Positions 67-20,079 of a stretch of DNA of 20,079 nucleotides are shown one piece after another. Positions within the stretch are counted from its first letter, which is position 1, and each line of letters opens with the position of its first letter. The position numbers and the translations under genes were made by a program. The notes under the pieces are model-generated. The model ran no database searches, was not told where the DNA came from, and saw only the letters and a list, made by a program, of their open reading frames with translations. This stretch comes from a virus, in the IMG/VR virus record IMGVR_UViG_3300040751_000621, positions 1-20,079 of that record. One strand, given 5' to 3'.

Positions 67-978
67 ATGAAAAACGTAGGATTACTAGGACTAGTCATAG
101 TCTTGTTCACCAGTGGGTGTGCAAGTATTCCTTCTATGCAAGACACTTGTGATTCTACAGTTATGCAACGTGTAGGTTCATGTATTGAAGATGCGGAGGT
201 TGTAAAGATACCGACCTATCAAGAACTTACAGACTTACCACCTGCTGAGACAATGCCGATTGTTGCAGTGTATGGTTTTCTAGATAAGACAGGACAAAGG
301 AAGAGAATGGACGGAGTTGCATCATTCTCAACTGCAGTGACCCAAGGTGCAGAAGCATTCTTAATTGATGCACTTAAAACTGCTGGAAAGGGTAAATGGT
401 TTAGAGTAGTAGAGAGAACAAATTTAGATGCACTTGTAAGAGAGAGACAAATCATACGAAGTGCAAGAGAAGACTTTGCAAATCAAGAAGGTAATGAAGA
501 TACCCCAACAGGAATCCAACCTCTCTTATTTGCTGGTATCCTACTTGACGGTGGGATAGTTGGTTATGACACTAACATTGAAAGTGGTGGACGAGGTGCA
601 AGAACACTTGGCATCGGTGCATCAAACTCCTATAGGAGAGATGTGGTGACTGTAAGTTTGAGAGGAATCTCAACACTTACAGGAGAGATTTTATTAAATG
701 TCCAAACTAAGAAGACGATTCTTAGCACGGGTGGTGGATATGATGTGTTCAAGTTTGTGGATATGGATACACAACTTGTTGAAGTAGAAGATGGTGTAGC
801 ATCAAATGAAGGAGTCACGAAAGCGACTCGTTCTGCAATTGAACTTGCTGTCTTAGAATTAATATACCAAGGACACGATAGAGGTTTTTGGGAAATAACA
901 GGTGGACATCGTCACCCCCATGGAACTCATGGGAGAAACGAACTTCACGATATAGAGGAAAAAACAAATGAAGAATAA
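67..978 (+). CDS. csgG: CsgG-family outer-membrane curli secretion channel lipoprotein
   Basis: This 303-residue protein starts with a lipoprotein signal peptide whose lipobox is TSGC with Cys18; the next residues are Ala-Ser, so outer-membrane sorting is expected. The mature part follows E. coli CsgG closely: LPPAETMPIVAVYGFLDKTG (residues 57-76), FSTAVTQGAEAF from residue 87, an IIRSARE segment, GGIVGYDTNIESGGRGAR, TGEILLNVQTKKTILS, and a C-terminal DRGFWE. CsgG forms a nonameric beta-barrel that exports unfolded curlin subunits across the outer membrane. In the constriction loop, E. coli Tyr51 and Asn55 align with Asp82 and Ser86, while Phe56 is kept as Phe87. The protein is slightly longer than E. 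coli CsgG, with a His-rich tail near residues 280-290. It overlaps the downstream curlin start by 11 bases, indicating translational coupling. Family assignment is very secure; the function of such a pore for a phage is not known from sequence. Confidence 0.95.
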   Translation: MKNVGLLGLVIVLFTSGCASIPSMQDTCDSTVMQRVGSCIEDAEVVKIPTYQELTDLPPAETMPIVAVYGFLDKTGQRKRMDGVASFSTAVTQGAEAFLIDALKTAGKGKWFRVVERTNLDALVRERQIIRSAREDFANQEGNEDTPTGIQPLLFAGILLDGGIVGYDTNIESGGRGARTLGIGASNSYRRDVVTVSLRGISTLTGEILLNVQTKKTILSTGGGYDVFKFVDMDTQLVEVEDGVASNEGVTKATRSAIELAVLELIYQGHDRGFWEITGGHRHPHGTHGRNELHDIEEKTNEE

Positions 979-1696
979 ACTTCTTTTATTATGTTTATCA
1001 TTAGGGTTAACTGGTTTCGTATCTGCAGCTGCAGATGATAACGAGATTTGGATACAACAGTCAGGTGACAATTTAACTTTAAACATAACTCAAAAAGGTT
1101 ATGCAAACAAAGTTGGTGGAGATGATTTCTCAAGTTCATCAATTGATATGATTTTGACTGGTGCAACCAATAGTTTAACACTATTACAGGACGGGGACTC
1201 AAACAAATTATACGGGCCATTCATTGCAGATAATGCCACAGTAAACTTAACTTTTACTGGTGACTCTAACTCAATGGACTGGAATGTAGGATATGTTGGT
1301 AGTGCTGATTATTTAAATATGTTAGGAACTGTGACAGGTTCATCTAACACATTTGACATTGATGTTGGATATGATGCATCTGCAGAATATCTTAACTGGG
1401 ATTTAGCACTTACTGGTTCATCAAACGTATTCACTACTAAAATAGATAGTGACAATGCAGTTTGGAACTGGACTGTGACAGGTTCATCAAATGATATCAA
1501 CACAATCCAAGCAGATGCATCTGATAACAGTATCACTGCAGTCTTAACTGGTTCTACCAATGACATCGACATCATTCAGAAGAGTGGTTCAGATGCTGGT
1601 TGTCCAAATGGTTCATTGTGTAGTGGTATTATTGATGTGTCTTTCGTGACTTCTAATGCAGATATTGACATCGTTCAGAAAGACTCTAACGATTAA
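968..1696 (+). CDS. Curlin-like secreted repeat protein (first copy)
   Basis: This 242-residue protein has a Sec signal peptide (MKNKLLLLCLSLGLTGFVSA, cleavage near residues 20-22). Its mature part is rich in Asn, Ser, Thr and Asp. It contains LNITQKGYANK (38-48), which resembles the curlin repeat pattern with Gln, Gly and Asn at fixed spacing, then six TG-x-(S/T)-N units starting near residues 64, 97, 123, 149, 171 and 194. A spacing of 22-33 residues fits stacked beta-strand/turn repeats of curlin fibres. Two cysteines near the C-terminus (212 and 218, spacing CX5C) are unusual for a curlin. The start ATG has a GAGGAA ribosome site at 955-960 and lies inside the end of csgG, so export through that channel is the natural inference. 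Whether it is the major (CsgA) or nucleator (CsgB) type cannot be decided. Confidence 0.8.
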   Translation: MKNKLLLLCLSLGLTGFVSAAADDNEIWIQQSGDNLTLNITQKGYANKVGGDDFSSSSIDMILTGATNSLTLLQDGDSNKLYGPFIADNATVNLTFTGDSNSMDWNVGYVGSADYLNMLGTVTGSSNTFDIDVGYDASAEYLNWDLALTGSSNVFTTKIDSDNAVWNWTVTGSSNDINTIQADASDNSITAVLTGSTNDIDIIQKSGSDAGCPNGSLCSGIIDVSFVTSNADIDIVQKDSND

Positions 1697-2792
1697 TCTT
1701 TTACTTATTGGTTCACTTTCAGGTGAACCGATAGGTGAGATTATAGAACAATCGGGTTCAGCAGGACTTCAGAGAGACGGAGAGTCTTCTATTGTCAGTG
1801 CAGCTTATTTACCCGAAGTCTTGATGTATGATACAGCACAAACTCAGAATGGGAGAATGAAGATTGAGTTCAAAGGTGAAGAACGACTGGACTTAACAGA
1901 ACACTCCAAGGTTTGGATAGACGAGGTATATTACGACCCCGACCCTTCCAAATCCAAAATGGCTATACGAATGGCACAAGGCACCGCTCGATTTGCTTCG
2001 GGATTCGGTGGTAAGATAAAGAAAAGTAATATTAAAGTGTCGACCCCTACAGCACAGATTGCTGTGGTTGGAACAGATTTCACTACAAGTATTGATGAAA
2101 TCGGAAGGTCACTTGTTATACTTTTGCCTGATGAATTTGGTAATCCTTCGGGTAAGATTATAGTGAGTAATGCTGGTGGAAGTGTCACACTTGATGAAGC
2201 ATACCAAGCGACAATGGTGTCTACTTTTGATGATTCACCCACTAAACCAGTGACAGTGAGTGGAATAGATGCAAATATGATTGACAATATGTTTATTGTG
2301 AATCCACCCGAAGAGGTGCAAGAACAAGTTGCAGAAGAATCGTCTAACAACGAAAATGATAGCAGCAACATTCTAGACGTGGACTTTTTAGAGTTCAATG
2401 ATTTAGAAGAAGATTACTTTGAAGACGATGAGTTGGAATATACAGAACTCGACAGAGACTTATTAGATGTCGATTTCTTACAAGATTTACTAGATGTAGT
2501 TTTGGAGATTGACCGAAAGGTTGGTATCGATGCAGAAAGAAAGGCAGACCCTTTCGGAGTTGCAAGAATAGAAGGAACTGCGTTTGGGTTTGACAAGGAC
2601 ACTCAATACAATACAATTGTAGATAAGGGTCTTGGTCAAATTTGGTTCTACAGGGAAGTTCAAGGAGTTATCTCCATTAAACTTCCAATCTATGCACAAG
2701 CAACGATTAGAACCACTACAGACGAAAAAGGTTCACTAATTAAAGTGGGTGATGGTTCGTCTATAAATATTACCATTACACAAACAAACTAG
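1656..2792 (+). CDS. Secreted FecR-domain protein
   Basis: This 378-residue protein has an N-terminal signal peptide: basic residues R8/K9, hydrophobic INLLLIGSL, possible cleavage near residues 23-24. Residues ~45-180 form a FecR-type domain, with TPTAQIAVVGTDF at 130-142 matching the family's T-P-x-A-x-x-x-V-x-G-T-x-F core. Residues ~225-285 are a strongly acidic linker rich in Asp, Glu and Leu (EFNDLEEDYFEDDELEY), followed by a beta-rich C-terminal domain. FecR domains of this kind are periplasmic or surface modules and often lie beside signalling proteins. The start used is the ATG at 1656, which overlaps the curlin gene by 41 bases and has no clear ribosome site; no later ATG would keep the signal peptide. 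It sits between two curlin genes and upstream of the CHASE2 cyclase, so a role in sensing or anchoring the fibre is plausible but unproven. Confidence 0.75.
   Translation: MQILTSFRKTLTINLLLIGSLSGEPIGEIIEQSGSAGLQRDGESSIVSAAYLPEVLMYDTAQTQNGRMKIEFKGEERLDLTEHSKVWIDEVYYDPDPSKSKMAIRMAQGTARFASGFGGKIKKSNIKVSTPTAQIAVVGTDFTTSIDEIGRSLVILLPDEFGNPSGKIIVSNAGGSVTLDEAYQATMVSTFDDSPTKPVTVSGIDANMIDNMFIVNPPEEVQEQVAEESSNNENDSSNILDVDFLEFNDLEEDYFEDDELEYTELDRDLLDVDFLQDLLDVVLEIDRKVGIDAERKADPFGVARIEGTAFGFDKDTQYNTIVDKGLGQIWFYREVQGVISIKLPIYAQATIRTTTDEKGSLIKVGDGSSINITITQTN
2762..2769 (+). promoter_or_regulatory. Possible T4 late-type promoter TATAAATA inside the FecR gene
   Basis: An exact TATAAATA octamer, the T4 late promoter core, lies 33 bases before the next ATG (2802) and reads towards the small membrane gene and the second curlin. 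It lies within coding sequence in an AT-rich genome, so chance occurrence is possible. Confidence 0.3.
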
Positions 2793-2801
2793 GAGAATTA
2801 T

Positions 2802-2951
2802 ATGAATAGTATGTTAGAAAAACTTCGTAATTGGCACGAATTTCAGTTAACTGGATTTCAAGATGCGATGAGACTAGACGATTACCATATGTTATGGTTA
2901 TCATTCAGTAAAGGAGTAGTATTTACATTATTATTTTTATGGTTAGTATAG
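2802..2951 (+). CDS. Small single-pass membrane protein, 49 residues
   Basis: An open frame of 49 codons begins with ATG at 2802, preceded by a good ribosome site (AGGAG at 2791-2795). The N-terminal half is charged and amphipathic (MNSMLEKLRNWHEFQ). The C-terminal third is hydrophobic (GVVFTLLFLWLV) and would make one inner-membrane helix ending at the C-terminus. It fills the space between the FecR gene and the second curlin with no overlap. No family is recognised. Tail-anchored small proteins of this kind can modify a membrane partner, and the nearby cyclase is one candidate; that is speculation. Confidence 0.65.
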   Translation: MNSMLEKLRNWHEFQLTGFQDAMRLDDYHMLWLSFSKGVVFTLLFLWLV

Positions 2952-2956
2952 ATTAA

Positions 2957-3625
2957 ATGAAAGATACCACACAGCACATTGCAGTTCTATTTTTACTTTC
3001 CTTAATGGGACTGGGGTGGACTAGTGTGGCATCTGCTGGAGATAACCACGTCCACGTTGAACAAGTATCAAGTGGAGATGTGGAACTCAACATAACACAA
3101 AAAGGTTATGATAATGAAATTAAGTTTTCATTTGCACATAGTGGAAACACATTCAATTTATTACAAACAGGAAATGGAAACTCTATTTCTTGGGTCTCTT
3201 ACTGGGGGCCAGGAAAGTCTTGGGGTGGTGACGTAGACGGGACTAACAACACCGAGAATGTATCACAAACAGGTGGTGCAACATATGGTAGACACATATG
3301 GGGAAATAGCAATACAGTAGACATATATCAAAACGGAAGTCACACACATAACATAGACATTCACTCAAATTCAGTAGACCACGAAATACACCAGTCGGGT
3401 AGTGGTTCACACTATGCACACACTTACTACTATGGAAGTGCAACTGGTTCAGATAGTAGTATCATGCAGAAGGGTTCGGGAAATCATAATGCACAAATTA
3501 CACTACAGGGAAACTATCCTACAACACTAAATCTTTTACAAGATAGTTCAACAAACTTAACATATACACTCACCCAAAATTGTGCAACAGTAGGTGGTTG
3601 TTCGGTATCGGTCACTCAACAATGA
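2957..3625 (+). CDS. Curlin-like secreted repeat protein (second copy)
   Basis: This 222-residue protein has a Sec signal peptide ending in SVASA (cleavage after residue 27). Near the N-terminus it carries ELNITQKGYDNEIKF, which matches LNITQKGYANK in the first curlin-like protein. Curlin-type units with Gln, Gly and Asn follow (LLQTGNGNSI, VSQTGGATYG, IYQNGSHTHNI, IHQSGSGSHYAH, IMQKGSGNHNAQI). This Q-x-G pattern is closer to classical CsgA/CsgB repeats than in the first copy. The middle is rich in His and Tyr. It ends in a CX5C pair (Cys209, Cys215) followed by SVSVTQQ, a tail layout shared with the first copy. It is a probable substrate of the upstream CsgG channel. The stop overlaps the next start (ATGA). 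Confidence 0.82.
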   Translation: MKDTTQHIAVLFLLSLMGLGWTSVASAGDNHVHVEQVSSGDVELNITQKGYDNEIKFSFAHSGNTFNLLQTGNGNSISWVSYWGPGKSWGGDVDGTNNTENVSQTGGATYGRHIWGNSNTVDIYQNGSHTHNIDIHSNSVDHEIHQSGSGSHYAHTYYYGSATGSDSSIMQKGSGNHNAQITLQGNYPTTLNLLQDSSTNLTYTLTQNCATVGGCSVSVTQQ

Positions 3626-3840
3626 ATTCAGAATGTCCCCAACCTATCGAGTGGGACGATGAACTCGAATCATCAGAACTTGAATTAGGAGATGTCGAAG
3701 CTGCATCTGATTTCGTATGGCAAGTTCTCTTCCTTACACCAATAGAGTTGGTCTACATAGGATTCACAATGACAGTCCTTGCAACATATGGACTTTCTAT
3801 TTACTATATCTATAAACGAATACAAAAGAAATTCTCATAA
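3622..3840 (+). CDS. Acidic single-pass membrane protein, 72 residues
   Basis: The start is the ATG at 3622 inside an ATGA overlap with the curlin stop; an upstream in-frame ATG at 3580 lies within the curlin gene and is less likely. The first ~35 residues are highly acidic (EWDDELESSELELGDVEA). A hydrophobic stretch follows (~residues 40-62, including VYIGFTMTVLATYGLSIYYI), then a basic tail (KRIQKKFS), which predicts a membrane helix with the basic end in the cytoplasm. The stop overlaps the cyclase start in TAATG, so the two proteins are probably made in fixed ratio. No family is recognised. A partner or inhibitor of the cyclase is an inference from the coupling alone. Confidence 0.7.
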   Translation: MNSECPQPIEWDDELESSELELGDVEAASDFVWQVLFLTPIELVYIGFTMTVLATYGLSIYYIYKRIQKKFS

Positions 3841-5678
3841 TGTATAATTGGAAAACAGTCCTAATCACGATTGGTGTATTTGTAGGACTTAAAATTTGGT
3901 CTCCTTACTTAGTAGAGAATATTAAGTGGTCTTACTTTGATGTTCTTCATCAGAGTCAGGAGAAAGTTCAGGTTGATGACATTGTCTTAGTAGACATAGA
4001 CGAGAAGTCACTTGAAGTGTTTGGACAGTATCCTATCAAACGTAGTATCTATAGGGATATCCTGCTTGACACTCATTACACTAACACACATGTTTTCACT
4101 CAACTCTTCAATCAACCTGATAGAAATCAGGGAGAAGATGAAATCTTTGCAGAAGGGTTAGTCAACAGATTATCAATTCTATCAGCTGCACCTACCATTC
4201 AAAAGAACACTGGTTCTGCACCCTTTGTAGGAAACTCTACCTTTGGGGGTGGAAAGGCAACAGACCACCTATGGAACTTCTCAGGAATTTCAAGTCCTAT
4301 CAGGATACTTCAGGACAATACTTACGGAGTTGGGGTCACTGTTGCAACACCTAGTGTTAGTGGAACACCAAACTTTGATGGGACGACAAGGTCTATTCCT
4401 TTAATCATAACTGCAAACGAACAGGTGTATCCGTCTCTTGCACTGGAAACACTTCGTGCATTAAAAGACCAACCTTCGTATCAAACTAAAATTACAGAAG
4501 TCGGAGTAGAGTGGGTAAGAATGGGTAGAGACAAACCTATCACCACCACTCCAACGAGTGATGTTATGGTGACCTATTGGAATGAGTTCCAACGGGTTTC
4601 TGCTGTCGACTTACCTAATCTAAATCTTACTAATAAAATTCTGATATGGGGTTTGACTGCAGAGGGATTGAATAATCCAGTTTCAACTCCAGTGGGTGTA
4701 TTGTATCCTCACGAAGTGCAAGCGAACCATATCCAAACCGTTTTGTCAGGAGTTCAAATACAACAATCCTACTATCTTGAATTGCTTGAGATTGTTCTTC
4801 TGTTGACAGTTCTTGTATTGATACTGGTGATGGTTTACAAACTTCCCACAGTTCTTTCGGGGATAGTGAGTCTAACACTTGTAGGACTTCAAATCTTCGG
4901 GAGTTATTATATTTGGACTTCAGAGCTCGTTCTTTTCGATACCTTCTTTTCATCAATTGCCTCCTTGATTGTTTTTGGTCATGCCTCTTTCAATCAATAC
5001 TATACAACCTACCAACTCAAAGAAGAAATCAAGAAGCAGTTCCAAAAGTATTTATCTCCCGACATGGTTGACCAACTTGCAGAGAATCCCGATTTACTTA
5101 AACTAGGTGGAGATAGAAAAGAACTTACATTCATGTTCATGGACATATGCGGATTCACCCCCATAAGCGAACACTATATGAAACAGGACGACCCCGAAGG
5201 ATTAGTAGAATTGATTAACAAATTTCTTGACATGCAAACAAAGATAATCCTAAATAATAATGGAACAATTGACAAATACATGGGTGATTGTATTATGAGT
5301 TTTTGGAATGCACCTTTAGATTGTCCCGACCATGCTGAAATGGCAGTAAAGTCTGCAATAGAAATTTTAGAGGCAACCAAGGAACTCAATGAAGAACTCA
5401 AACCGCTTAATCTTCCACCCATTAACGTGGGTATTGGGATTAACACTGGTGAGTGCATCGTTGGAAACATGGGGTCAGAACTTAGATTTGACTATTCCGT
5501 CATTGGAGACGCCGTCAATCTCGGTGCTAGACTCGAGGGACAAACAAGAAATTATGATGGGGTGGACGTGTTGTTGGGAGAAGCAACATATCGACAATGT
5601 CCGTCTAGAGCATTCACTGAAGTCGACAGAATTCTTGTCAAAGGAAAAACCGAACCCGTTACAGTTTACACTATCTGA
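3840..5678 (+). CDS. CHASE2-domain class III adenylate/guanylate cyclase
   Basis: This 612-residue membrane enzyme would make cAMP (or cGMP) from the nucleoside triphosphate. Order: an N-terminal membrane helix (~6-24), an extracytoplasmic CHASE2 sensor (~25-305), about three membrane helices (~311-395), a short linker (LKEEIKKQFQKYLSPDMVDQL), then the catalytic domain (~425-612). All catalytic positions are present: metal-binding Asp435 (FMDICGFT) and Asp483 (DKYMGD), substrate Lys479, Ser553 in YSVIGDAVN (the Thr/Ser type seen in class IIIb cyclases), and transition-state Asn560 and Arg564 (VNLGARLE). The enzyme therefore looks active, and its length is normal for bacterial CHASE2 cyclases. 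CHASE2 domains sense unknown extracytoplasmic signals. It lies downstream of the FecR and curlin genes and is translationally coupled to the preceding small membrane protein. Adenylate versus guanylate specificity is not certain from sequence alone. Confidence 0.93.
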   Translation: MYNWKTVLITIGVFVGLKIWSPYLVENIKWSYFDVLHQSQEKVQVDDIVLVDIDEKSLEVFGQYPIKRSIYRDILLDTHYTNTHVFTQLFNQPDRNQGEDEIFAEGLVNRLSILSAAPTIQKNTGSAPFVGNSTFGGGKATDHLWNFSGISSPIRILQDNTYGVGVTVATPSVSGTPNFDGTTRSIPLIITANEQVYPSLALETLRALKDQPSYQTKITEVGVEWVRMGRDKPITTTPTSDVMVTYWNEFQRVSAVDLPNLNLTNKILIWGLTAEGLNNPVSTPVGVLYPHEVQANHIQTVLSGVQIQQSYYLELLEIVLLLTVLVLILVMVYKLPTVLSGIVSLTLVGLQIFGSYYIWTSELVLFDTFFSSIASLIVFGHASFNQYYTTYQLKEEIKKQFQKYLSPDMVDQLAENPDLLKLGGDRKELTFMFMDICGFTPISEHYMKQDDPEGLVELINKFLDMQTKIILNNNGTIDKYMGDCIMSFWNAPLDCPDHAEMAVKSAIEILEATKELNEELKPLNLPPINVGIGINTGECIVGNMGSELRFDYSVIGDAVNLGARLEGQTRNYDGVDVLLGEATYRQCPSRAFTEVDRILVKGKTEPVTVYTI

Positions 5679-16773: not shown

Positions 16774-16950
16774 ATGAAGAAAGTGATAAAAAGTTCAGAG
16801 GTTATAACAAAGATAACCGAAAAAATTGAACTCAAGAAACAATTGAGAGATGCACGTATGTCTAAAGATTCTAAAGAAATTGATAAAATAAACAAAAAAA
16901 TATCAAAAATAGAATCAAAATTGTCTTCTTCACCACTTGCAAAATCCTAA
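16774..16950 (+). CDS. Small highly charged coiled-coil-like protein, 58 residues
   Basis: The frame encodes 58 residues rich in Lys, Ile, Ser and Glu (KEIDKINKKISKIESKL) with heptad-like hydrophobic spacing, so a helical coiled coil is likely. The net charge is strongly positive, so nucleic-acid binding is possible. ATG 16774 lies about 4 bases after the predicted transcription start and has no ribosome site; an internal ATG at 16858 is an alternative. No family is recognised. Confidence 0.55.
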   Translation: MKKVIKSSEVITKITEKIELKKQLRDARMSKDSKEIDKINKKISKIESKLSSSPLAKS

Positions 16951-16995
16951 ATAATAACATAGATTACATACACTATAGTAAATCACGGAGAATTT

Positions 16996-17433
16996 ATGTC
17001 AAGAGAAACAGCGAGAACAGATTTAGTAACTAAAATTGCAGACTTAACTAGTAATAAGAATTGGTTAAAGGGTGTAAGTCAAGAATATCAAGTCACTAAT
17101 CAACCTAACGGAACAGACCATTCTGCACGTGATAGTAAATCTGCATGGACAGGTGCTGGACTTGTTGGTTGGTTAACTGCATGGAAGACTGCAAATTCTT
17201 CAATAACTGCAGATGCAACTTGGAATCCAGCAGACTTTGACGGAAGTAATTGGACACATGACGATTGGCAACAATACTATTTCCAAGAACATGCAAAAGG
17301 TATGACAAACTTTACAGATTCAGACCAAGCTATTACAGATATAGATGCTGAATTAGCTGCATTGCAATCAGACTTAGACGATATCGACGCAGGAATAGCT
17401 GCTGGTGATATTGACCAAGTTGACCCAAGTTAG
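16996..17433 (+). CDS. Hypothetical protein, 145 residues, possible virion protein
   Basis: GGAG at 16987-16990 precedes the ATG. The protein has no signal peptide or membrane helix. It is rich in Trp (about eight, for example SAWTGAGLVGWLTAWKT and NWTHDDWQQYY), Asp, Thr and Ala, and ends with a helical, acidic Asp/Ala/Ile tail (ITDIDAELAALQSDLDDIDA). The Trp-rich middle and acidic helix suggest a structural or adaptor protein, but no family is recognised and the function is unknown. Confidence 0.75.
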   Translation: MSRETARTDLVTKIADLTSNKNWLKGVSQEYQVTNQPNGTDHSARDSKSAWTGAGLVGWLTAWKTANSSITADATWNPADFDGSNWTHDDWQQYYFQEHAKGMTNFTDSDQAITDIDAELAALQSDLDDIDAGIAAGDIDQVDPS

Positions 17434-17493: not shown

Positions 17494-18696
17494 ATGGGTG
17501 CAAAAAATCTACATTTAGAACACTTAGAAGACGAGATTATCAATCAAGGGATTGATGGTGGTCGTGGTGCTATAAACTTTTTACAGGGTCTTAGAGACAT
17601 GTTAAAAGGAAACTCTAATTCAAGTGTTAATATGACTGTTAAGTGGGACGGAGCTCCTGCTATTTTCTGTGGTCAACACCCCGAAACTAATCAATTCTTT
17701 GTTGCAAAGAAATCTCTATTCAATAAAGAACCTAAGTTTTACACTTCAGAACATGAAATTAAAAATGCAGACGAACTAAGTGGTGCATTAAAAGAAAAGT
17801 TCTTAACTTCATTTCAATGTTTATCTAAACTATCTTGGAATACAATCATGCAAGGTGATTTAATGTATACCAATGACAAGAAAATGCAAAAGATTGACGG
17901 AAAATCATTCGTCACATTCCAACCAAATACAATCATGTATGCAGTAGATATCAATTCAGATTTAGGTAAAGAGATTGCAAACTCTAAAATGGGAATCGTA
18001 TTTCACACTACCTATAGTGGTGGAACTATAGAAGACCTATCTGCAAGTTTTGGTGCAAACATATCCAAACTAGGAAACAGTTCAGACGTATGGATTGACG
18101 ATGCAACATACAAAGATGTCAGTGGTAAAGGGTCAATGACTGCAAAGGAAACACTTGCACTTACACAAGAACTATCTAAAACAGGTAAAGCCTTCCACGG
18201 AATCAAAAGAAAGGATTTAGATAAGTTCCAAAAAATACAGGAAGAGATAGGTAGAAAAGGTGCTGGTGCATCATACAAAACATATTGTAATACACTTATC
18301 AGAGGTGGTTCATACAAACCAACCTATGACGGATACATGAAACACTTTGAGAACTATTGGAGAGACAAAGTAGTTGGTAAAGTCAAAACAGAAAAAACAA
18401 AACAAATTAAAACAGAGATTGGTGAACAACTTTATAACGAACTCAGAAGTTTAAAGAAAATGATAACCAATCTTACTTCATTCATGGGACACTTGGTTGT
18501 TGCAAAACAAATGATTATAGAATCCCTAAATAGAGTAAAGAGTATCGGAACTTTTAAAAAGACTGCAACAGGTTTCGAGGTAGTTAACCCCGAAGGTTAT
18601 GTTGCAATTGATAGAACAGGTAGTGCAGTCAAACTCGTAGACCGAATGGAGTTTGCATTCAACAACTTCACTGCACAAAAAGCGTGGGACAAGTAA
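17494..18696 (+). CDS. Ligase-superfamily nucleotidyltransferase-like protein (DUF6267-like)
   Basis: This 400-residue protein carries the signature of covalent nucleotidyltransferases (DNA/RNA ligases, capping enzymes). Motif I is KWDG (Lys50-Gly53), the expected lysine-AMP site. A motif III-like strand is MQGDLMY with Asp122, motif IV is EGYVAID (Glu367-Asp373), and motif V is AVKLVD with Lys380. The order and the IV-to-V spacing fit RNA ligases of the T4 Rnl1 group. A ~240-residue insert between III and IV is unusual and contains helical, Lys-rich sequence (RKDLDKFQKIQEEIGRKGAG). I associate it with hypothetical proteins of marine T4-like phages. Ligase activity is an inference from motifs. 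It may repair tRNA or join nucleic acid ends with the downstream P-loop kinase protein, which starts two bases after this stop. It has no ribosome site. Confidence 0.7.
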   Translation: MGAKNLHLEHLEDEIINQGIDGGRGAINFLQGLRDMLKGNSNSSVNMTVKWDGAPAIFCGQHPETNQFFVAKKSLFNKEPKFYTSEHEIKNADELSGALKEKFLTSFQCLSKLSWNTIMQGDLMYTNDKKMQKIDGKSFVTFQPNTIMYAVDINSDLGKEIANSKMGIVFHTTYSGGTIEDLSASFGANISKLGNSSDVWIDDATYKDVSGKGSMTAKETLALTQELSKTGKAFHGIKRKDLDKFQKIQEEIGRKGAGASYKTYCNTLIRGGSYKPTYDGYMKHFENYWRDKVVGKVKTEKTKQIKTEIGEQLYNELRSLKKMITNLTSFMGHLVVAKQMIIESLNRVKSIGTFKKTATGFEVVNPEGYVAIDRTGSAVKLVDRMEFAFNNFTAQKAWDK

Positions 18697-18697
18697 T

Positions 18698-20079
18698 ATG
18701 AAATCATTTAATAAATTTCTCACAGAAGCTAAGAACAAAGGTGCAGTATTTACCTTTGGACGTTTCAATCCACCTACAACAGGTCATGGAAAGTTAGTAG
18801 ACAAACTCAAAAAAGAATCAAAAGGTGATGACGTTTTGTTATTCACTTCACACTCAAATGATAAGGTTAAAAATCCACTATCACACCGAGACAAAATCAA
18901 ATATCTTAAAAACTTCTTTGGGAAGATTGTTGCAGATGTAAATGCAAGAACAGTATTTGAGATTGCAACAGAATTACATAAAAAGAAATACACTAGAATC
19001 AAAATGGTTGTAGGTTCAGATAGAGTTGGTGAATTTACTACACTTCTAAACAAATACAATGGTGTTAAAGCACGTCATGGATTCTATAAATTCGAAGAGA
19101 TTAATATAGTATCTGCTGGAGAGAGAGACCCTGATGCAGATGATGTCAGTGGAATGTCTGCAAGTAAACTCAGAGGATATGCAGAGAAGGGTGACTTTGA
19201 TAATTTCAAACTAGGTGTTCCAACTAAGAACAAAGGATTGATTCAGAAACTTTATAACGATATCCGTAAAGGAATGGGTATTGCAGAAGGAACACTACCA
19301 CACTACATGGTTGAAGATTTAGTTAAAGAAGGAGTCTATGACCCAGGCACCTTTAAAGCAGTTTTCCTAAGTGGTGGGCCAGGCAGTGGTAAATCTGCAG
19401 TTGTAAAGAAATTAGCTTTGACTGCACTTGGTTTAAAAATGGTCAACACTGATAAAGCATTTGAGAACGGACTAAAGAAAGCAGGAATGTCACTTGACCT
19501 TAGAGGTGCAGACTTTGATAAAGTAGACCCTATCCGTGCAAAAGCAAAAAGTATTACAGGTAAAAACTTAGATGCATATATCGATGGAAGACTAGGTCTT
19601 ATCTTTGACACTACAAGTGCAAAGTCGGGTAAGATTAAGTCCTACAAAAAACTGTTAGATACATTAGGATATGAATACAAAATGGTATTTGTTAATGCAA
19701 GTCTAGACAATGCACAAAAAAGAAATGACTTAAGGTCTAGAAAACTACCATTTGCAATTGTAAAGAAAGATTGGGACGCTGCACAAAAAAATGCAAAAGA
19801 ATATAAATCAATTTTTGGTAGAGACTTTGTAGAGATTAAAAATGATGATGACCTTGCAAGTCTTGATAAAAAGGCAAATTCACTATACAGTAAACTGTTA
19901 GGTTGGTCTACTTCATTTCCCAAAAACAAAATTGCAATGAAATGGAAATCTTACGAATTGCTGAAGAAGAATACTACTGGTTATTCATCTATAAGAAGTA
20001 AAGATGCAGTGAAAAAACCACCAACAGAAAAACCAAGTCCATTTGGGTCAGACTTAAAAATAACCAAAAACAGAAAGAC
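18698..20079 (+). CDS. NadR-like nucleotidyltransferase / P-loop kinase, 3' partial, with capsid-targeting N-terminus
   Basis: The frame is open from ATG 18698 to the window end (460 codons seen). Residues 1-11 are MKSFNKFLTEA, matching the T4 capsid-targeting sequence MKTYQEFIAEA and ending in the gp21 protease site pattern (L/I)-x-E. Residues ~14-200 are a cytidylyltransferase-like domain: GRFNPPTTGHGKL (21-33, an HxGH variant with Thr27) and SGMSASKLRG (151-160, the ISSTxxR-type motif). Residues ~220-400 are a P-loop kinase: GGPGSGKS (226-233), DTTSAKSG, and a basic lid-like RNDLRSRKL. The pair resembles NadR/NadM-type NMN adenylyltransferase plus kinase, so a role in NAD synthesis is likely, but other nucleotidyl transfers or polynucleotide kinase activity are possible. 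The final region is basic and Pro-rich. The gene starts two bases after the ligase-like gene, suggesting co-translation. Confidence 0.85.
   Translation, partial: MKSFNKFLTEAKNKGAVFTFGRFNPPTTGHGKLVDKLKKESKGDDVLLFTSHSNDKVKNPLSHRDKIKYLKNFFGKIVADVNARTVFEIATELHKKKYTRIKMVVGSDRVGEFTTLLNKYNGVKARHGFYKFEEINIVSAGERDPDADDVSGMSASKLRGYAEKGDFDNFKLGVPTKNKGLIQKLYNDIRKGMGIAEGTLPHYMVEDLVKEGVYDPGTFKAVFLSGGPGSGKSAVVKKLALTALGLKMVNTDKAFENGLKKAGMSLDLRGADFDKVDPIRAKAKSITGKNLDAYIDGRLGLIFDTTSAKSGKIKSYKKLLDTLGYEYKMVFVNASLDNAQKRNDLRSRKLPFAIVKKDWDAAQKNAKEYKSIFGRDFVEIKNDDDLASLDKKANSLYSKLLGWSTSFPKNKIAMKWKSYELLKKNTTGYSSIRSKDAVKKPPTEKPSPFGSDLKITKNRK

Follow-up and report, generated by a model that had tools for sequence, protein, structure and literature searches.

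Genomic context of the locus

The window considered here, by which we mean the whole stretch of DNA that was analysed, is a 20,079-base IMG/VR virus record from a T4-like marine phage. At its 3' end it encodes a protein, termed P0001, that combines a nucleotidyltransferase domain with a P-loop kinase domain and begins with a short leader; the closest isolate for this protein is Pelagibacter phage HTVC008M. The features of the region are as follows:

16774-16950 and 16996-17433 (span 16774-17433), plus strand: two small genes between the helicase gene and the DUF6267 gene
17494-18696, plus strand: DUF6267 gene directly upstream of P0001 (PF19782, E 4.7e-103)
18698-20077, plus strand: nucleotidyltransferase-kinase ORF (P0001), 460 residues in the window, 3' open at the window end
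18698-18730, plus strand: leader resembling a capsid-targeting sequence, residues 1-11, MKSFNKFLTEA (T4 comparison, family tag alignment)
18725-18727 (E10) and 18728-18730 (A11), plus strand: predicted processing site E10/A11, following L8-T9-E10
18740-19291, plus strand: nucleotidyltransferase domain with a CoaD/NadD-like fold, about residues 15-198 (Pfam, PHROG 3041/395, fold matches)
18776-18787, plus strand: TTGH motif, an HxGH-type signature, residues 27-30 (alignment of 28 relatives)
19154-19174, plus strand: MSASKLR motif, counterpart of SxTxxR, residues 153-159 (alignment of 28 relatives)
19355-19975, plus strand: P-loop kinase domain, about residues 220-426 (Pfam AAA_33 and Zeta_toxin, fold matches)
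19373-19396, plus strand: Walker A motif GGPGSGKS, residues 226-233 (invariant in 28 relatives)

The start codon of P0001 is the ATG at 18698, with the stop of the DUF6267 gene lying 2 nucleotides upstream, and its full-length counterpart in a 99%-identical relative (L024) has 470 residues. The gene is located after the replicative helicase and before the primase and ribonucleotide reductase genes. The two small genes, the first of which is conserved in the relative G001, open this helicase-to-primase island; the corresponding island of cyanophage S-SCSM1 is rich in virion-detected proteins, and within it an NMNAT gene is surrounded by several virion-flagged proteins. PHROG 455 covers both the DUF6267 protein and the nucleotidyltransferase with a single profile, which suggests that the two are functionally linked. 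There are two copies of the late promoter motif TATAAATA in the window, where 1.7 would be expected, which lends no support to a late promoter, and the copy directly after the gene in L024 is again at chance level. Elsewhere in the window, the ORFs at 67-5678 resemble, by position and appearance only, a curli-like set of HTVC008M whose annotations are CsgF, CsgG, CsgB and adenylate/guanylyl cyclase.

Domain architecture and possible chemistry of the enzyme

The N-terminal domain of P0001 was recovered by the Pfam CTP_transf_like model (residues 19-113, E 4.7e-5, above the Pfam cut-off) and by the phage cytidyltransferase families PHROG 3041 and 395 (E 3.8e-60 and 1.3e-45, respectively), while its structural model matched PPAT (CoaD) and NadD with E about 1e-4 at moderate model confidence. 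The C-terminal domain was recovered by AAA_33 and Zeta_toxin (residues 220-369, E 1e-8 to 1e-7, above the Pfam cut-offs), and its modelled fold resembles those of PSTK, adenylate kinase and bacterial polynucleotide kinase at the same E of about 1e-4, likewise with moderate model confidence. A sequence search of the PDB with the family profile gave no match. In the alignment of 28 relatives T27, G29 and H30 of the TTGH motif are invariant and T28 nearly so, and M153, S154, A155, S156, K157 and R159 of the MSASKLR motif are equally invariant; given this conservation, together with that of the GGPGSGKS motif, both domains are probably active.

The earlier note had described the protein as a NadR-like bifunctional enzyme. 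Part of this description holds, in that the order of a nucleotidyltransferase followed by a P-loop kinase is that of NadR (NMN adenylyltransferase/ribosylnicotinamide kinase) and the motifs of both domains are intact. However, membership in the NadR family itself was rejected: P0001 scores 25.9 bits against the curated TIGR01526 cut-off of 341, with a local match over residues 19-74 only, and its kinase domain resembles the folds of PSTK, adenylate kinase and polynucleotide kinase. The homologs in HTVC008M (AGE60463 and AGE60464, 106562-109011) share both domains and the DUF6267 neighbour, but there the kinase and the nucleotidyltransferase are encoded by separate genes and the leader is degenerate (MKTLKELLRKK, without F4, F7 and E10); thus neither the fusion nor the tag is constant across the relatives. 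When HTVC008M was scanned in six frames for the strict tag, no true start of a gene was recovered, the only match being a chance TTG ORF.

An NAD-related function for P0001 is plausible and speculative, and we would place it somewhat below even chances. Such chemistry would agree with the NMNAT matches of the N-terminal domain. Both HTVC008M and C48C1 carry a NAD synthetase gene, and the rebuilding of NAD is an established phage answer to defences that deplete it, by enzymes different from P0001 (PMC12774641). We regard it as less likely than not that the protein instead repairs or modifies nucleic acids, with DUF6267 possibly acting as a ligase. This possibility draws on a match to a PHROG of polynucleotide kinases (E 7.4e-9), on the aforementioned folds of bacterial polynucleotide kinase and PSTK, and on the neighbouring DUF6267 protein, in which the motifs K50-W-D-G, Q120-G-D-L-M, E367-G-Y-V and V379-K-L-V are invariant. 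These motifs, K50-W-D-G and the E367-G element among them, are reminiscent of nucleotidyl-transfer ligases, a resemblance that is suggestive of a ligase role. Against this, the structural model of DUF6267 finds no fold match among solved structures at E 0.001, and NMNAT-type models match the N-terminal domain of P0001 as well.

A leader resembling the T4 capsid-targeting sequence

We noted a pronounced similarity of the first 11 residues of P0001, MKSFNKFLTEA, to the N-termini of the T4 internal proteins, which in NC_000866 read MKTYQEFIAEA in IPII and IPIII and MKTFKEF in IPI. The similarity to this capsid-targeting sequence (CTS), proposed in the earlier note, was confirmed by a BLOSUM62 score of 27, which was reached by none of 43,800 shuffled N-termini; among the 27 ORFs of the window compared in all, the other 26 scored 8 or less. 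For reference, a scan of 32 kb of T4 for the strict tag recovered IPII, IPIII and one chance TTG match. The match is also position-specific. The mutational map of IPIII assigns targeting to residues 4 and 7 and processing to residues 8 and 10 (PMC9026906), and at these positions P0001 has F4, F7, L8 and E10, the first two conforming to the aromatic character seen in T4. The leader is accordingly similar to those of IPI, IPII and IPIII in its length, in the aromatic residues 4 and 7, the aliphatic residue 8, Glu 10 and Ala 11, and in the predicted cleavage site of the prohead protease gp21. We consider it very likely that the leader is a T4-type head-targeting signal.

To assess conservation we used a set of 80 viral relatives, 79 of them with a visible start and many near-identical. 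The tag core is kept in 74 of these 79, although one of the six search patterns used to collect them was the tag itself, so that the set leans slightly towards tagged members. Three (L077, L080 and L081, of the MKTFKSFNEA type) carry a one-residue deletion in the tag, and two (L078 and L079) start directly at an intact enzyme core. The earlier note had treated homologs lacking the N-terminal segment as evidence against its proposal; only these two are untagged, and their intact enzyme core shows the leader to be detachable rather than part of the fold. Across the 15 distinct intact tags residue 4 is always F, residue 7 is F or W, residue 8 is L, I or V, residue 10 is always E and residue 11 is A or Q, whereas residues 5 and 6 are free to vary.

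The protease gp21 cuts after L/I-x-E (PMC9026906), and L8-T9-E10 at the end of the leader obeys this rule as the earlier note had stated; moreover, FLTE|A is identical to the cleavage site of T4 gp23 (GSFLTE|AEIGG). Although the record of the window is a 20-kb fragment without the head genes, gp21 included, this protease (PF03420) is present in its closest long relatives G001 and G002 (E about 1e-38) and is annotated in HTVC008M, S-CREM2 and S-SCSM1. The gp23 sites read FLAE|A in S-SCSM1, LLTE|A in S-CREM2 and TLEE|A in G001 and G002. Cleavage of the leader at E10|A11 is thus predicted, and we consider it likely. Conceivably, the protein could reach the head core by means of the tag, either as part of the scaffold or as a passenger, and then remain uncleaved or not be injected: in T4 an Asp at position 10 blocks processing while targeting is kept (PMC9026906), and V at P3 or altered sites (MKTFKSFNEA, FVSEQ) in some relatives suggest targeting without canonical cleavage. 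The retention of E10 and an aliphatic residue 8 in all 15 distinct intact tags, and the matching L-x-E|A sites in gp23 of the same clade, make such an outcome improbable.

Detection of tagged orthologs in cyanophage virions

NMNAT-like enzymes have been detected in cyanophage virions by several groups. The S-SCSM1 NMNAT (ORF91), which lies in the equivalent genome island, is among 45 virion proteins identified by mass spectrometry, in a report that also cites further phages (PMC9602691); gp154 of S-CREM2 was detected with 3 peptides (PMC10665884) and the cytidylyltransferase S-SZBM1_140 with 2 peptides (PMC9146016). P0001 shows significant similarity to the S-SCSM1 and S-CREM2 proteins (E 4.7e-41 and 2.1e-25, respectively), and both begin with the same type of leader, MKSFLQFLKEA and MKNFSSFLTEA. 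We found seven tagged cyanophage orthologs in all, including these two; the other five tags are MKSFSQFLTET, MKKFSAFLTEA, MKKFSTFISEA, MKKFNAFLIEA and MRSFLTFLTEA, and they are kept though the following 80-120 residues differ. The S-SCSM1, S-CREM2 and S-SZBM1 enzymes differ from P0001 in lacking its kinase domain and in carrying a spacer that separates the leader from the enzyme. The S-CREM2 enzyme has only one close relative in IMG/VR, and the homolog in Caulobacter phage Cr30 is untagged.

These detections have been open to the reading that the virions were contaminated by an enzyme that works solely once it has been expressed in the host, as an auxiliary metabolic function; the authors of the S-CREM2 study themselves cautioned about carry-over in CsCl purification (PMC10665884), and for two of the three phages few peptides were recovered. 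We find this reading improbable. The enzyme was detected independently in three T4-like cyanophages, and others cite a fourth phage with a virion NMNAT-type enzyme, the non-T4 S-CBWM1. The S-SCSM1 gene, furthermore, sits among virion-detected neighbours, and the non-structural enzymes that were detected are tagged whereas the untagged replication enzymes of S-CREM2 were undetected. With several of the statistics chosen after the data had been seen, the start-anchored motif was found in 5 of 219 S-CREM2 proteins against 0.37 expected from shuffles, and 4 of these 5 are virion-detected (Fisher P 0.012). The bearers include the SAM lyase/hydrolase gp6, the APH-like kinase gp14 and the cytidylyltransferase gp154. 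Among the four virion enzymes that are neither structural nor lytic, three have start-anchored matches (P 2.3e-5); in the fourth, gp12, which is annotated as Cas9, the motif lies at residues 18-24, and if the motif is allowed anywhere in the first 30 residues, a limit set after seeing gp12, all four match (P 3.8e-7). Some tagged annotated starts in S-SCSM1 are not virion-flagged, for example gp30 (MKTFKQFMSES).

Recurrence of the leader on unrelated proteins

Beyond the nucleotidyltransferases, the leader is found on several otherwise unrelated proteins, a modularity that is also typical of the T4 internal proteins. S-CREM2 gp6 (L109:3837-5081, minus strand) is a member of PF23780, a family of S-AdoMet lyases, and in 51 of 80 retained viral relatives of this family the tag stands directly before the domain, the remainder having the domain inside longer ORFs (20/80) or degenerate versions of the tag (9/80). 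This suggests that the tagged PF23780 SAM lyases may be packaged anti-restriction enzymes; T4-type gp23 was found in 6 of the 14 tagged SAM lyase contigs tested. Tags also occur on a RimK-type ATP-grasp protein, on small island proteins, and on the DUF6267 homologs of C48C1 and Melnitz, although the DUF6267 protein of the window is untagged. That the leader is a regular helix at the N-terminus of the enzyme, serving as a dimer contact or fold cap and resembling the T4 CTS by convergence, is very improbable: the model places its residues 5-10 in a helix and the family conserves the segment well, but the model confidence here is low (pLDDT 42 over residues 1-11, the lowest of the N-terminal part), the relatives with an absent or shortened tag retain the enzyme, the same leader precedes unrelated proteins, and in cyanophages 80-120 variable residues separate it from the enzyme.

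In the large PF23780 family of marine phage SAM lyases (L119-L198), some leaders read MKTFKEFISEA and are near-identical to that of T4 IPIII. The ATP-grasp protein is gp2 of Melnitz (L108:82-1131; PF08443, E 3e-33), which has a TTG start and the tag-like leader LTQKFSQFITEE.

A proposed packaging and delivery route

Strong support for the earlier proposal that the CTS brings the enzyme into the head comes from the agreement with the positions mapped in T4, the conservation of the tag among orthologs, its recurrence on unrelated proteins and the published mass spectrometry of ortholog virions, and packaging in the head can on these grounds be regarded as well supported. We envisage that the first 10 residues act as a T4-type capsid-targeting propeptide, with F4 and F7 docking the enzyme into the scaffold core of the prohead late in infection. 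During head maturation a gp21-type protease would cut at FLTE|A, freeing the mature nucleotidyltransferase-kinase, which would stay with the packaged DNA, enter the host with it and act before phage gene expression. The reaction that it would then catalyze is, speculatively, most likely a form of nucleotide or NAD-cofactor chemistry in support or defence of the infection. By analogy with T4, injection with the DNA is reasonably likely, and the reading as a whole, that of a CTS-tagged enzyme that is packed, trimmed and injected, we hold to be quite probable.

A precedent for such a cargo is T4 Alt, a NAD-related enzyme that is packed in the head and injected; Alt is an ADP-ribosyltransferase and hence of a different enzyme class. 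The internal proteins of T4 are small and basic, whereas the putative cargo here is a two-domain enzyme with intact motifs, predicted to be processed, in marine Kyanoviridae-type phages.

Virion NMNATs and the T4 CTS are each already known on their own, and the published reports of the cyanophage virion enzymes do not mention the leader. A literature search linking the capsid-targeting sequence to cyanophages found only a general T4 review; subscription papers lay outside this search and a prior description is possible. Within searchable papers the link from virion NMNATs to the CTS of T4, and the occurrence of the tag on several families of enzymes in marine T4-like phages, appear to be new. 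Where the NMNAT-like proteins of cyanophage virions have been left undecided between cargo and contamination, a T4-type leader offers a mechanism. On balance we favor the more general view that in Kyanoviridae one swappable T4-type tag arms virions with varied ready-made enzymes, making injected effectors predictable from sequence. The cargo set in this view comprises the nucleotidyltransferase-kinase, the anti-restriction SAM lyase, kinases, a large nuclease-annotated protein and ATP-grasp ligases, and it includes a second shared module that sometimes follows the tag. If true, the internal-protein system of T4 would extend from enterobacterial phages to abundant phages of the ocean, and it would become possible to predict from the first dozen residues which effectors they inject, probable anti-restriction SAM lyases among them.

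A second module shared by tagged cyanophage proteins

The second module, with the pattern LGL.G.GhG.W.D..G..vA.t..GkL, follows the tag in the cyanophage nucleotidyltransferase orthologs L199-L203 and in S-CREM2 gp14 and gp12, and is absent from P0001. It spans residues 13-51 and 164-207 of gp14 (L109:10579-12846, minus strand) and residues 45-84 of gp12 (L109:7704-10313, minus strand). gp12 is a virion protein annotated as Cas9/Csn1, but a comparison with Pfam at E 0.01 gave no family for it, which makes this annotation doubtful. A profile built from six nucleotidyltransferase orthologs picked out just two of the 219 S-CREM2 proteins, gp14 (E 2.5e-16) and gp12 (E 1.7e-11), both of which are virion-detected.
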